Source of the DNA: Woeseiaceae bacterium
GTDB taxonomy: Bacteria > Pseudomonadota > Gammaproteobacteria > Steroidobacterales > Woeseiaceae
Assembly: GCA_021773135.1 (NCBI GenBank)
Contig: JAJFKP010000010.1
Location: 163,857-227,856 of the forward strand
DNA length: 64,000 nt
Reading direction: 5' to 3'
Every line of letters starts with the position of its first letter. Positions within the stretch are counted from its first letter, which is position 1. The translations under genes and the position numbers were made by a program. This document shows positions 1 to 56,278 of the stretch, piece after piece. Below the pieces are notes generated by a model, which saw only the letters and a list, made by a program, of their open reading frames with translations, searched no databases and was not told the origin of the DNA.

Positions 1-115
1 AGCGGCGCTGCAGGGCCACATTCAGTCGAGACGAATTCATTTGTCGTTGCTTGAACAAAAAAGTGTATTTCATCCACACCATTTTGGCTGCATACCGATG
101 CCTTGTTGGCATCTA

Positions 116-3772: not shown

Positions 3773-5031
3773 CGTTCCGCTCCATTCTGTTTGGGCTCGG
3801 CGGGTTTTCGCTCCCCGTCAGCCGGCGGCCGTTTGGCGGCCGGTGGTCCGCCACCGCTGCCGGATCGTTCTGCGCCGGCAATCGCAACGCGCAGGCCTGA
3901 AGTGACCTGTCCAAGTGGCGTCGTCACCAGCTGATCACCATGTTTCAAGCCGTTCGCAATGATCGCGTCATTGTCATTCTGCCAGGCAATCTCAACGTCT
4001 TTCCGGCTGAGCAATCCGTCCTCTACCGTATAGACATAGCTGCCCTGGTAGATCGTGCTGTTCGGAATTACCAGTACGTCGCTCTGCCTGACACCCGCGA
4101 TTTCCGCTGTTACGTACTGGCCAATCTTGAGTGGCGCCCGCCCGACATTTTCGGGGCCAAAGGGATCTTCAATGTGTGCAATGACGTGCAGCTGCCGCGC
4201 GGTGGCATCGATGGCTCCCTCGGTACGAACAAGCTGCGCGTTCCAGGTCTCGTCGCCGATAAGGTCTGAGTGGATGGTGACGGCCGTCTTGGGCTTGCCG
4301 TCGGCATCACCAAAGCGAAAACTCTCCGGCAGATCGATAAAACTAAGATCGCGATTTCGCACCGGTAAGCGAATCTCCACAACATCGGTAGCGTATATTT
4401 CCGCAAGCTGGGTATTTGGCGAAACGACTTGCCCCACGTCGACCAGTTTTCTTAGGACCCGACCCGAAAATGGCGCAACAATTCGCGTTCGCTCGAGATC
4501 AAGGTTGGCTTTCTGCAGCGCAGATTCGGCGGAGCTGACCCTGGCTTTGGCAGCCTCAAGTTGCGGCACACGCAGAACGAGATCCGGTGCATCACCGCTA
4601 TTGCCGAGGCGTTCCCAGTCTTCGCGTGCCTGGTTGGAGCGCGCCTCCGCCTCCGCCAGTGCCTGGCGCGCATCGGCAAGCGCTGCCTCCGCGATGCGAA
4701 CATCCGCTTCATAGTCGCGCGGGTCGATCCGACCCAGGACATCGCCCGCTTCGAAGAAGCCACCGTCGCGAACATTCTCATTGACGGAAATAATCTGGCC
4801 ACTGACCTGAGCGACCAACACGCTTCGTGTTCGTGGCTGAACCGTACCGTAACTCTGCAGCTGAACCTGGTAGTTCTGCCGTTTGACCGTGGTCGTCTCA
4901 ACGACCATCTGCGGCCCGCCGAAATTCCCCCGCTGGGGTGCCTCGGGCGGGTTCATTTTGATGACAACCGCAAGCAATATCAGTCCGCCGAAAATGGCGA
5001 ATGGAATTAGTTTCCTGGATTTAAGATTCAT
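3769..5031 (-). CDS. RND efflux periplasmic adaptor (membrane fusion protein)
   Basis: This adaptor links the RND permease to the outer membrane channel. The 420-residue protein starts with an uncleaved-anchor or signal-like helix at residues 6-24. A lipoyl/barrel-sandwich half follows (TRSVLVAQVSGQIISV), then a coiled-coil hairpin rich in Ala, Glu and Arg (about 100-185), then the returning half (RIVAPFSGRVLRKLVDVGQ) and a beta-barrel. The tail is unusual: a low-complexity Gly/Pro/Lys/Glu segment of about 30 residues (GGGPPAAKRPP and onward). It overlaps the permease start by four bases and begins six bases after the outer membrane factor gene ends. Confidence 0.93.
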   Translation of the reverse strand: MNLKSRKLIPFAIFGGLILLAVVIKMNPPEAPQRGNFGGPQMVVETTTVKRQNYQVQLQSYGTVQPRTRSVLVAQVSGQIISVNENVRDGGFFEAGDVLGRIDPRDYEADVRIAEAALADARQALAEAEARSNQAREDWERLGNSGDAPDLVLRVPQLEAAKARVSSAESALQKANLDLERTRIVAPFSGRVLRKLVDVGQVVSPNTQLAEIYATDVVEIRLPVRNRDLSFIDLPESFRFGDADGKPKTAVTIHSDLIGDETWNAQLVRTEGAIDATARQLHVIAHIEDPFGPENVGRAPLKIGQYVTAEIAGVRQSDVLVIPNSTIYQGSYVYTVEDGLLSRKDVEIAWQNDNDAIIANGLKHGDQLVTTPLGQVTSGLRVAIAGAERSGSGGGPPAAKRPPADGERKPAEPKQNGAER

Positions 5032-52823: not shown

Positions 52824-52852
52824 TTGAGTTTTCTGTCTGTCGAGGCTAGTTT
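52824..52852 (+). promoter_or_regulatory. candidate sigma-70 promoter of the T-box/ileS unit
   Basis: TTGAGT (52824-52829) and TAGTTT (52847-52852) are 17 bases apart. The implied start site, near 52859, coincides with the 5' side of T-box stem I. Confidence 0.5.
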
Positions 52853-52945
52853 GCCGTGGAGGACAATGATGGGGACAAGTAAGCGGTGCCCTTCGATCAA
52901 AGCGACCGGGAGATGGTGCGAGCCCCGGATTGAATACCGCCGAAT

Positions 52946-52948
52946 ATC
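52946..52948 (+). promoter_or_regulatory. T-box specifier codon ATC (Ile)
   Basis: ATC lies in the 3' strand of the specifier loop, followed by A. It would pair with the GAU anticodon of tRNA-Ile, in agreement with the downstream ileS gene. Confidence 0.88.
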
Positions 52949-53051
52949 ACCCCGGAGTCGCCGCCCGAAATGTGCTTGATGCAGACTAGGAACGGCCGGC
53001 TGATCCCCGCTACAGGATTTAACGAGGCAGCCGTCGAAAGACTGCTGTGAA

Positions 53052-53085
53052 CCGGGTGGTACCGCGACCAGTTTAATCGCCCCGG
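53052..53085 (+). promoter_or_regulatory. T-box antiterminator with TGGTACC bulge
   Basis: Helix A1 is CCGGG (53052-53056) with CCCGG (53081-53085). Helix A2 is GCG (53064-53066) with CGC (53078-53080). The 7-base bulge TGGTACC (53057-53063) matches the T-box consensus TGGNACC; its TGGT is complementary to a tRNA ACCA end, as expected for tRNA-Ile with discriminator A. The A1 3' strand is also part of the terminator, so the two folds exclude each other. Confidence 0.9.
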
Positions 53086-53112
53086 ACGCAAGCAAGCGTC
53101 CGGGGTTTTTTT
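53080..53112 (+). terminator. T-box-controlled intrinsic terminator
   Basis: A 10-bp stem, CCCCGGACGC-AAGCAA-GCGTCCGGGG, is followed by seven T residues, 17 bases before the ileS ATG. Confidence 0.93.
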
Positions 53113-53128
53113 GTTGCAGGACTTTTAA

Positions 53129-56100
53129 ATGACATTCAAGGAAGTATCAGGTCGATACGACGGGCCAGCACTTGAGAGTGCGGTGCTGGACTTTTGGTGC
53201 GAGCAAGATGTGTTCTCAGAGACGCTGGCCATGTCGAAGGGGCGGCCGCTGTTCACGTTCAACGAAGGCCCGCCGACGGCGAACGGCAAGCCTGGCATTC
53301 ATCATGTCCTGGCGCGCAGTTTCAAGGATGTCTATCCGCGTTACAAAACGATGCGTGGCTATCACGTGCCGCGCAAGGCCGGGTGGGACACCCACGGATT
53401 GCCGGTCGAGCACGAAGTTGAGAAACAGCTCAAGCGCGACAACAAGATCGAAAGCTATGACAAGGAAGAAATAGAAGAGAAAGTTGGCATTGCCGAATTC
53501 AATCGACTGTGTCGCGAGTCAGTCATGCGTTACATCGGCGACTGGGAGAAAATGACCGAGCGCATGGGCTTCTGGGTCAATCTAGATGAGGCCTACTACA
53601 CGCTGCATAACAGTTTCATCGAAAGTGAGTGGTACCTCCTCAAGACCATCTGGGACAAAGGCCTTATATATCGGGGCTACAAAGTTGTGCCGTACGATCC
53701 ACGCATTGGCGCGACCCTGTCGTCGCATGAGTTGGCGCTCGGGTACAAGGATGTCGAAGACCCATCGGTATTTGTACGCTTCAGGGTAGTTGGTGAGGAG
53801 AACACATCGTTCCTGGTGTGGACTACGACGCCATGGACCCTGCCAGCCAACATGCTGCTGGCTGTTCACCCGGATATCGACTACGTCTATGTGGACACCG
53901 GCAGCGAGACACTGATACTGGCCGAAGCCCTGCGTGAATCGGTCCTGCGCGACGTCGAACACAAAGTGATTAAACAGGTTACCGGCGCCGATCTGGTCGG
54001 CGGCCGCTACGAACGGCTGTTCGAATACCTTGAGGTTGAAGGCGATGCATTTCGTGTGGTTGCCGCCGATTTCGTCAGTACCGAATCGGGAACCGGTATC
54101 GTGCACACTGCGCCCGCCTATGGCGTCGACGATCTCGCACTCGGGCAGGAACACGGGCTGCCCGTCGTGCATGCGGTAGGACAGGACGGCAATTTCCTGC
54201 CCGAGATCGAACCCGTAGCCGGGATGTTCTTCAAGGATGCGGACAAAACGTTGATCCGCATACTCAAAGATCGGGGTCTGATGTTTCGTGCAGAGACCTA
54301 TCAGCACAGCTATCCGTTCGGTTGGCGCACGGGAGATCCGATCATCTACTACGCCAAGAATGCCTGGTATATACGTACCTCGGACTACCGTGACCGCATG
54401 GTCGAGCTCAATAAGACGATTAAGTGGGTACCTGAAACTATCCGCGACGGTCGCTTCGGCAACTGGCTTGAGAACAATATCGACTGGGCGCTGTCGCGCG
54501 AGCGTTTCTGGGGTACGCCGCTACCCGTCTGGACAGACGGTGAGGGCGACAGTATCTGTGTCGGCTCCGTCGCCGAACTGGAGAGGCTAACCGGCCGTGA
54601 ACTCAGTGAACTCGATCTGCATCGACCGGCCGTCGATGATGTGACCTTCGAAAAGGATGGGCGCACCTTTCGCCGGGTGCCGGAGGTCATAGACTGCTGG
54701 TTCGACTCCGGTGCGATGTCCTACGCGCAGTGGCATTATCCGTTCGAAAACAAGGACGCGTTCGAGCAGCATTTCCCGGCTGACTACATTTGCGAAGCAA
54801 TCGACCAGACGCGCGGGTGGTTTTACACACTCCATGCGATCGCGACGCTGGTCTCCGACAGCGTTGCCTACAAGAATTGCATTTGTCTCAACCTGATCGT
54901 GGACCAGGAAGGCAAGAAAATGTCGAAGTCGGTTGGCAACATCGTCGATCCGTATGACGTGTTCGATACGGTCGGAGCGGACGCCTTGCGCTGGTACTTC
55001 CTTGCAAGACTAAGCCCGGAGGTTCTGAAACGTATTTCCGTTGACATAGTTCAGGATGTCGCCAGTTCGTTCATCAACACACTGTGGAATACATACAGTT
55101 TTTTCATTCTCTACGCACGAATCGACGAATTCGATCTCGAAGACCGGATTCCCGTTGCGGAGAGACCCGAAATAGATCGTTGGGCTATCGCGTTGCTCAA
55201 CCAAACTGTGCGCACCTGCACAGAGGCACTGGATGACTATGACGCGAAGCGTGCCGGAGACGCCATCGAGTCTTTCGTCGATCAACTCAGCAACTGGTAC
55301 GTGCGCCGCAACAGGAGACGTTTCTGGAAGTCAACCGATGCGGCTGACAAGCGCTCCGCATATTTGACACTGTACGAATGTCTCGAGGGCCTGAACCGGC
55401 TGCTTGCTCCATTCATACCGTTTCTGACCGAAGAGATTTATCAAAACCTTGTGCGCAGTGTGCGCCCCGATGCGCCGCTTAGCGTGCACATGTGTGCGTG
55501 GCCTGCAATCAATGCAGACCATGATGATGCAACCCTGTTGTACGAGATCGGGGTGGTACAGAAAGTGGTGGGTCTCGCCAGGGCGGCGAGAAGTCAGTCG
55601 GGCGTGCGTACCCGACAACCACTGTCACGATTGCTGGTACGCACGCCGGACGACAAAGCTGCCAATGCGCTGGAAGAGCATCGCGACCAGGTGCTCGAGG
55701 AACTCAACGTTAAGACGATAGAATTCATTGCACGTGATGCCGGGTTGGTAAGTTATCGTATCAAGCCAAATCTGCCGCGAATCGGGAAACGCTACGGCAA
55801 GCTGATACCGCACATTCGCAAGGCGCTCGACCAGGCAGACGGTGCCGCGATCGCAAGCGCCGCAGCGAGTGACGAAGAATTTGAAATTAGTGTCCAGGGT
55901 GAAACCATCAAACTCGGCGCCGAGGACGTCCTCATCGAAACGAGTTCCGCTGCAGGCTTTGCGTGCGGGGAAGATGGCGGCTACCTGACCGCGCTGGATA
56001 CCAGCCTGAATGATGAGCTGCTGCGGGAAGGTGTTGCCCGAGAATTGATCAGGACAGTGCAGGAAGCGCGCAAACAGGCGGGTCTCGAGGTCTCGGATCG

Positions 56101-56278
56101 AATTATTTTGGGTGTATCCGGTACCGAAGGCGTCGAATCTGCGCTCGAAGCGTATCGGGATTACCTGATGGCGGAAACGCTGGCGACCCGCTGGGCTGTT
56201 GGCCAGGCGGATCCACACTACACAGAGGACCGGACGCTGGACAATGAGTCGTGGAAAATTGAAATAAGTAAAATGTGA
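53129..56278 (+). CDS. ileS: isoleucyl-tRNA synthetase, type 2, with GxHH signature
   Basis: This enzyme charges tRNA-Ile. The 1049-residue protein has the class I catalytic core, a CP1 editing domain (FLVWTTTPWTLPANMLLAVHPD), KKMSKSVGN near residue 597, and an anticodon-binding region. The sequence style (GWDTHGLPVEHEVEKQLK, WDKGLIYRGYKVVPYDPR) is of the type 2, eukaryote-like group rather than the type 1 enzyme of E. coli. No C-terminal zinc-finger Cys cluster is seen. At residues 56-59 the HIGH element is G-I-H-H. The usual ribF and lspA neighbours are absent and the gene stands alone behind a T-box, which suggests horizontal acquisition. Confidence 0.95.
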   Translation: MTFKEVSGRYDGPALESAVLDFWCEQDVFSETLAMSKGRPLFTFNEGPPTANGKPGIHHVLARSFKDVYPRYKTMRGYHVPRKAGWDTHGLPVEHEVEKQLKRDNKIESYDKEEIEEKVGIAEFNRLCRESVMRYIGDWEKMTERMGFWVNLDEAYYTLHNSFIESEWYLLKTIWDKGLIYRGYKVVPYDPRIGATLSSHELALGYKDVEDPSVFVRFRVVGEENTSFLVWTTTPWTLPANMLLAVHPDIDYVYVDTGSETLILAEALRESVLRDVEHKVIKQVTGADLVGGRYERLFEYLEVEGDAFRVVAADFVSTESGTGIVHTAPAYGVDDLALGQEHGLPVVHAVGQDGNFLPEIEPVAGMFFKDADKTLIRILKDRGLMFRAETYQHSYPFGWRTGDPIIYYAKNAWYIRTSDYRDRMVELNKTIKWVPETIRDGRFGNWLENNIDWALSRERFWGTPLPVWTDGEGDSICVGSVAELERLTGRELSELDLHRPAVDDVTFEKDGRTFRRVPEVIDCWFDSGAMSYAQWHYPFENKDAFEQHFPADYICEAIDQTRGWFYTLHAIATLVSDSVAYKNCICLNLIVDQEGKKMSKSVGNIVDPYDVFDTVGADALRWYFLARLSPEVLKRISVDIVQDVASSFINTLWNTYSFFILYARIDEFDLEDRIPVAERPEIDRWAIALLNQTVRTCTEALDDYDAKRAGDAIESFVDQLSNWYVRRNRRRFWKSTDAADKRSAYLTLYECLEGLNRLLAPFIPFLTEEIYQNLVRSVRPDAPLSVHMCAWPAINADHDDATLLYEIGVVQKVVGLARAARSQSGVRTRQPLSRLLVRTPDDKAANALEEHRDQVLEELNVKTIEFIARDAGLVSYRIKPNLPRIGKRYGKLIPHIRKALDQADGAAIASAAASDEEFEISVQGETIKLGAEDVLIETSSAAGFACGEDGGYLTALDTSLNDELLREGVARELIRTVQEARKQAGLEVSDRIILGVSGTEGVESALEAYRDYLMAETLATRWAVGQADPHYTEDRTLDNESWKIEISKM

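Follow-up and report, generated by a model that had tools for sequence, protein, structure and literature searches.

Described T-box switches and isoleucyl-tRNA synthetases

T-boxes have been regarded as belonging to Gram-positive bacteria and a handful of other phyla. In the available portions of an early survey they were listed for Firmicutes, Actinobacteria, Chloroflexi and Deinococcus, and only 2 of 125 proteobacterial genomes carried one, in both cases before leuA, in Geobacter and Pelobacter (Wels 2008, PMC2494555). Much the same range, namely Firmicutes, Actinobacteria, Chloroflexi and Thermus/Deinococcus plus Geobacter, is given in the pertinent passages of PMC3766115. No Proteobacteria are named in the accessible text of PMC7778990 and PMC7583486, and the available main text of the TBDB paper does not name them either. 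In isolated Gammaproteobacteria a T-box-like element has been reported upstream of hisS, with transfer suggested as its origin in the available part of the report (Genome Biol 2010, PMC2965389), so the class already has some precedent in these bacteria. According to the relevant section of PMC12452182, 10% of Pseudomonadota riboswitches have a terminator, and fast transcription was suggested as the reason.

Isoleucyl-tRNA synthetases fall into two types, of which IleRS1 is described in the available text of PMC4861432 as the one generally found in proteobacteria, while ileS2 has spread by transfer. A GXHH signature was linked to mupirocin hyper-resistance in work whose available text reports it in no IleRS1 (Nat Commun 2023, PMC10485003).

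The locus described here lies in a 64,000-nucleotide stretch of DNA (the window; contig JAJFKP010000010.1 of assembly GCA_021773135.1) from a member of the Woeseiaceae, which is a gammaproteobacterial family, as the sequence-only reading had judged from the neighbouring genes. A T-box precedes the only ileS found in this genome. It is predicted to sense tRNA-Ile, and we hold it probable that ileS2 and the T-box were gained jointly and that the native ileS1 was lost. The switch is of a known kind and the lineage is unexpected. With the hisS element the leader shares a T-box-like attenuator on a tRNA synthetase gene of Gammaproteobacteria and a suggested transfer; that element concerns hisS in isolated cases, as far as the available text of PMC2965389 describes it, whereas the present leader precedes ileS and is family-wide with gene displacement. 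The leuA T-box of Geobacter and Pelobacter likewise belongs to what were then Proteobacteria, but it precedes a biosynthetic gene in the delta lineage in the available account (PMC2494555). A gammaproteobacterial ileS T-box was not reported in the literature searched, which took in few subscription papers and left aside two key T-box surveys and the TBDB database.

The T-box leader of ileS

A T-box ahead of ileS had been proposed from the letters of the window, and the covariance model, the conserved specifier and covariation together support it. In a scan of 501 bases, the Rfam T-box model RF00230 matched window positions 52857-53087 on the + strand over its full length (model 1-219 of 219) with 90.4 bits and an E value of 1.7e-20. 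This score lies 2.6 bits below the curated gathering score of 93 bits, which is why a default scan against Rfam gave no match in the window. A genome-wide search found one T-box in the source genome (4.55 Mb in 64 contigs, 99.67% complete), with an E value of 3.7e-20, and the same search of E. coli gave no match. Since 93 bits is exceeded by just 10 of the 42 leaders found in the family, screening at the curated cut-off overlooks most of the clade. The parts of the locus, all on the + strand, are as follows.

52824-52852, +: predicted promoter TTGAGT-17-TAGTTT (conserved in the family; none in a generic sigma-70 scan)
52857-53087, +: T-box leader (RF00230, model 1-219)
52863-52958, +: stem I (helices 1-5; 18/21 pairs with both-side changes; 84.9 to 100% of cells paired per helix)
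52878-52881, +: AGTA motif, 5' side of the specifier loop (read in the sequence; AGTA in 25/42 family leaders)
52901-52905, +: AGCGA, which we take to be the AG-bulge side of apical stem I (52901, 52902, 52904 and 52905 invariant in 42/42)
52915-52918, +: apical loop GGTG (GTG at 52916-52918 invariant in 42/42)
52946-52948, +: specifier ATC, an Ile codon, followed by the purine A52949 (ATC in 42/42)
52961-52995, +: stem II (6/6 pairs with both-side changes; 88.9% of cells paired)
53027-53048, +: stem III, pairing register uncertain (43.2% of cells paired as Rfam draws it)
53052-53085, +: antiterminator, helix A1 53052-53056/53081-53085 and helix A2 53064-53067/53077-53080 (the four counted A1 pairs, 53053-53056/53081-53084, invariant in 42/42)
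53057-53060, +: TGGT bulge, predicted partner of the ACCA end of uncharged tRNA (invariant in 42/42)
53079-53112, +: intrinsic terminator, stem 53079-53106 and a run of seven T (found by scan; 99.8% of cells paired; 4/10 pairs with both-side changes)
53129-56278, +: ileS of the IleRS2 type, 1049 aa, with GIHH and KMSKS signatures and a DUF5915 C-terminus (TIGR00392, PF19302)

The elements that had been named beforehand, AGTA, the ATC specifier with its following A, the apical motifs, TGGT and the terminator with its T-run, are all present in the sequence. The leader has the outline of the ileS transcriptional T-boxes covered by RF00230, with a stem I that carries the specifier loop and apical motifs, a stem II, an antiterminator with a UGGN bulge, an AUC specifier and ileS downstream; it differs from them in its gammaproteobacterial host, its G+C-rich helices, its score of 90.4 against the 93 bits of the cut-off and the replacement of AGTA in 17 of 42 family leaders.

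The promoter with a 17-base spacer that had been read at the start of the leader fared less evenly. Its match to the consensus is poor and the generic sigma-70 scan found none, but the site is kept in the family. The pattern TTGN3-16..18-TAN3T occurs in 39 of 42 leaders, 3-4 bases 5' of the point where the Rfam match begins, and in 38 of these the spacer has 17 bases; the pattern turned up in 219 of 8400 shuffled controls (2.6%). From this site transcription would begin at about 52859, where stem I has its foot.

From this anatomy we infer regulation by tRNA-Ile. When uncharged tRNA-Ile accumulates, the AUC specifier would pair with the GAU anticodon, stem I would dock with its apical part on the elbow of the tRNA, and pairing between UGGU and the free ACCA end would hold the antiterminator, so that transcription continues into ileS. 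Charged tRNA could not make this last pairing; the more stable terminator would then form and ileS would be turned down. Strand 53080-53085 is common to the antiterminator and the terminator, which exclude each other, and the energies calculated for 53048-53112 are -24.7 kcal/mol for the terminator vs -10.7 kcal/mol for the antiterminator. Termination would be the default, because the terminator is the more stable of the two. The earlier statement that specifier, TGGT/ACCA pairing and gene all agree on isoleucine stands for the specifier and the gene, but not for the TGGT/ACCA pairing, which is not specific for Ile: TGGT implies only a tRNA that ends in ACCA with A as its discriminator base.

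The tRNA-Ile partner is assumed, as tRNA-Ile(GAU) was not found in the 14 genomes searched by pattern; two of these are IleRS1 controls, which makes that search uninformative. The usual place of tRNA-Ile(GAU) is the rRNA operon, which is presumably missing from the sequences searched. Partly read tRNA matches in three genomes held no tRNA-Ile(GAU). Similarity matches to E. coli tRNA-Ile were rejected, one being tRNA-Val and the other a fragment with no tRNA according to ARAGORN. Tandem tRNA-like repeats were seen in the source genome on the - strand of L161 1-300 (C63), and ARAGORN reports no tRNA in the overlapping L158.

Conservation and covariation in the family

The leader was sought in 80 genomes including the source, 49 from its own family and 31 spread over another 15 families of the order. 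It was found in 42 of the 49 and in 0 of the 31, so that related genomes do share it, with specifier and antiterminator core conserved, as the proposal of a T-box had implied. Among family members with no T-box called, two (G009 and G031) gave no ileS match at E 1e-60, three (G006, G010 and G037) have only pieces of ileS that lack the start, and in another (G041) the contig ends inside ileS. A further one, G003, belongs to the window's own genus and has a complete ileS (L150, about 464-650, - strand). Its leader keeps the promoter, TGGTACC and the terminator, yet a palindromic insert with 24-base arms replaces most of stem I. The T-box is apparently being lost in this genome; the palindrome may also be an assembly artefact. 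In draws from the class and the phylum, made with stricter filters that weak matches could escape, the T-box was found in 2 of 369 genomes, both of the family, and in 1 of 398, the source genome itself. Identical leaders were seen between G002, a member of the window's genus, and L015, and elsewhere in the family between G043 and L003 and between G023 and L001.

To test covariation, the 42 family leaders were aligned with MAFFT and read against a structure derived from Rfam. Both sides had changed in 32 of 46 pairs, against a mean of 22.1 in shuffled alignments (0 of 500 shuffles reach 32) and 11 to 18 in slid registers. For the terminator, too, the 4 of 10 pairs with both-side changes exceed every one of 500 shuffles and every slid register. 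Overall 85.1% of cells are paired, a figure that is favoured by the structure having been drawn on one of the aligned sequences. In helices 1-6, that is stems I and II, 84.9 to 100% of cells are paired and double changes occur in 24 of 27 pairs, and the TGGTACC core is invariant in all 42. RNAalifold recovers stem I and the terminator unaided. It prefers a pairing of stem II with the antiterminator and pairs the 5' strand of stem II otherwise than drawn, and for stem III a register one column off pairs better, so that the register drawn by Rfam, at 43.2%, is not supported.

The specifier is ATC in every leader, 41 by pattern and G016 by direct reading, in alignment columns that are invariant. 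It is followed by A in 39 leaders, G in two and T in one (G018), hence by a purine in 41 of 42. AGTA, at leader alignment columns 21-25 (window 52877-52881), is replaced in 17 of 42 leaders, often by AACA and in others by AATA, for example. Within the window's own genus it is replaced in 6 of 8 leaders.

It could be argued that such a leader is a T-box relic blind to tRNA, its terminator a fixed attenuator or bypassed, and the enzyme level set elsewhere. The G003 leader, with its promoter, TGGTACC and terminator kept and most of stem I gone, would suit that view, as would two related loci without a T-box (L006 and L009) and an AGTA that is not fixed; both-side changes in stems I and II, with an invariant specifier and antiterminator core over 42 genomes, argue instead for selection that acts on the parts for sensing and not on the terminator alone, and we consider a relic improbable. 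If it does sense tRNA-Ile, as we predict, the leader of this family offers a natural test of tRNA-dependent antitermination with a proteobacterial RNA polymerase.

An IleRS2 gene and the empty slot of the native ileS1

The open reading frame at 53129-56278 scores 941.7 bits with TIGR00392, against a cut-off of 621.4, and it is the single ileS above that cut-off in the source genome. The enzyme carries the signature GIHH and ends in PF19302 / DUF5915. By identity, GXHH signature, position in the tree and DUF5915, it is classed as IleRS2 rather than IleRS1. The sole IleRS found therefore has a signature reported for mupirocin-hyper-resistant IleRS2. It shares GIHH and its type with the GXHH enzymes described in PMC10485003, whose available main text has no word in "regulat-"; the window enzyme differs in belonging to a Gram-negative family in which no second IleRS was found.

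With this enzyme as the query, one match each was obtained in 47 of 49 genomes of the family. Of the 31 genomes that belong to the order but not to the family, 28 have an ileS that is 31-33% identical to it, and one (G064) gave no match. Family f8 (G068 = L213 and G055 = L226) has a more distant IleRS2-like gene with 36-43% identity.

The place that ileS1 would occupy was read from the neighbourhood of lspA. In the source genome the order is obg, murJ, ribF, lspA, with 27 bases between ribF and lspA. The neighbourhood was sought in 15 genomes of the family and 15 others of the order; G007 and G019 gave no lspA match. Without an intervening ileS, ribF adjoins lspA in 14 of the 14 family genomes read (13 plus the source), and in G014 the two parts of lspA lie on separate contigs. 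Among the controls of the same order, IleRS1 lies just upstream of lspA in 13 of 15, and the other two are the f8 genomes, which have ribF there instead. The native ileS1 slot between ribF and lspA is empty in the family. In f8, where no T-box was called in either genome, the loss of ileS1 is probably a separate displacement.

Since many of the relatives are metagenome-assembled, a piece of Gram-positive or Chloroflexota contig in a metagenome bin might be suspected, but the same leader recurs in 42 genomes of one family, including one that is a single contig of 4.06 Mb (G017), no ileS besides this gene was found there and the slot of ileS1 stands empty, so that we give assembly contamination practically no weight. 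Vertical descent of ileS2 and T-box since an early ancestor of bacteria, with both lost from almost all other Proteobacteria, would account for a scattered distribution, and an ancient duplication has been argued for ileS1 and ileS2 in the available text of PMC4861432. It is hard to square with IleRS1 beside lspA in 13 of 15 same-order controls and with a phylum draw that, under its strict filters, held no T-box beyond the source genome (1 of 398), and it seems to us very improbable.

We retain the joint gain of ileS2 and T-box and the loss of ileS1. An ancestor of the family would have received an IleRS2 gene and its T-box together, the donor probably being Chloroflexota-like, and would have lost its own ileS1 from the slot between ribF and lspA, a displacement that would have taken place long ago.

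IleRS2 is not confined to this family. In the class draw, 16 of 369 genomes had an IleRS2 match at E 1e-180 or better, 14 of them outside the family with 36-50% identity, and from such sequences IleRS2 is judged to have entered Gammaproteobacteria more than once. A T-box core was found within 700 bases upstream of 0 of these 14 genes; the sole one-mismatch match among them (L265) lies inside a coding region.

Origin of the gene and its leader

For a tree of IleRS2, the best 80 of at least 587 matches were combined with 14 members of the family (94 rows), and the true donor may be unsampled because of this selection. The first tree had long branches meeting at the root, and it was rebuilt after 44 of the 94 rows, both outgroup rows among them, were dropped (50 rows). 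Gammaproteobacterial IleRS2 of the window's kind form one clade, with SH-aLRT 100 in the first tree and 100/100 in the rebuilt one. The clade groups with Chloroflexota and one cyanobacterial row (95 in the first tree, 89/92 in the rebuilt one). Another gammaproteobacterial row, L052, falls elsewhere, with Rhodothermota. A grouping of the gammaproteobacterial rows with Bacillota was not rejected (AU p 0.079). GXHH is found in the window's clade and in the Chloroflexota rows, and HXGH in the Bacillota rows, so the signature, as read in these rows, speaks against a Bacillota link. It does not single out Chloroflexota, because it is also found in rows of Ignavibacteriota, Bacteroidota, Rhodothermota, Balneolota and Actinomycetota. 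The cyanobacterial IleRS2 of L044 (Leptolyngbyaceae), which groups with Chloroflexota, has an upstream T-box-like core, GGTGGCACCGCG.

The loci of the tree were labelled for a T-box core in the 500 bases upstream and then in a wider look, which added L011 and L028. A core was found in 46 of the 79 loci with a readable 5' end, within 500 bases in 44 and further off in L011 and L028. Among Chloroflexota it is present in 17 of 21 loci, no more than 500 bases from ileS in 16 of these, and of the four without it L018 has only 205 bases upstream. RF00230 matched all six Chloroflexota loci that were picked for having the core, one with 76.6 bits and the others with 84.2 to 107.9. The nearest kin of the window's IleRS2 include Anaerolineae (L012, L013, L016, L019, L020 and L024), whose T-boxes likewise have a GXHH IleRS2 downstream and, in the loci examined, a hairpin and T-run after the core. 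They differ in about 50% protein identity, in their phylum and in the letters of helix A1 and the terminator. Within the gammaproteobacterial clade, three loci outside the family carry a T-box (L005 with 99.4, L007 with 61.5 and L011 with 115.8 bits), and two with IleRS2 of the same clade (L006 and L009) had none in the covariance scan.

These data support in outline the earlier proposal that leader and gene moved together; they add that the transfer is old, and they leave the donor phylum moderately supported at 89/92. Leader and ileS were likely acquired together from another phylum, co-transfer being the simplest reading of the sequences. That the transfer is old is judged from its family-wide distribution and from kin in other gammaproteobacterial groups.

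It might be held instead that ileS2 arrived first and the T-box was captured later. None of the 14 IleRS2 genes from outside the family in the gammaproteobacterial draw has an upstream core, but those genes are only 36-50% identical to the query. A glutathione S-transferase (GST)-like open reading frame between T-box and ileS in L011 indicates that leader and gene are separable, and the 50-row tree calls for at least 10 changes in T-box presence, with the original as with the corrected labels, so that the tie between leader and gene is not a tight one in the long run. The core in 17 of 21 Chloroflexota loci, 16 within 500 bases of ileS, and the T-box in the other branch of the gene's own clade (L005, L007 and L011) weigh against a separate arrival, which we rate as unlikely, though less so than the other alternatives considered above.

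Joint acquisition remains the preferred reading. On balance we lean towards its broader form, in which a single ancient event replaced the essential ileS1 throughout the family by a foreign GXHH IleRS2 and the tRNA-sensing switch that came with it, the supply of Ile-tRNA would now be run by a riboswitch, and in Arenicellales kin the same switch would command a GST-ileS operon. If this is true, a tRNA-sensing switch can cross phyla with its gene, displace a native gene and then stay under selection.

The Arenicellales locus L011 (4055-8147) is an unusual T-box operon, with an Ile-specific T-box followed by an open reading frame with a GST domain at 4343-4987 and by ileS2 from 5001. In other gammaproteobacterial loci, SAH riboswitches lie downstream of ileS, at 5732-5814 in L006 and at 9565-9645 in L007.
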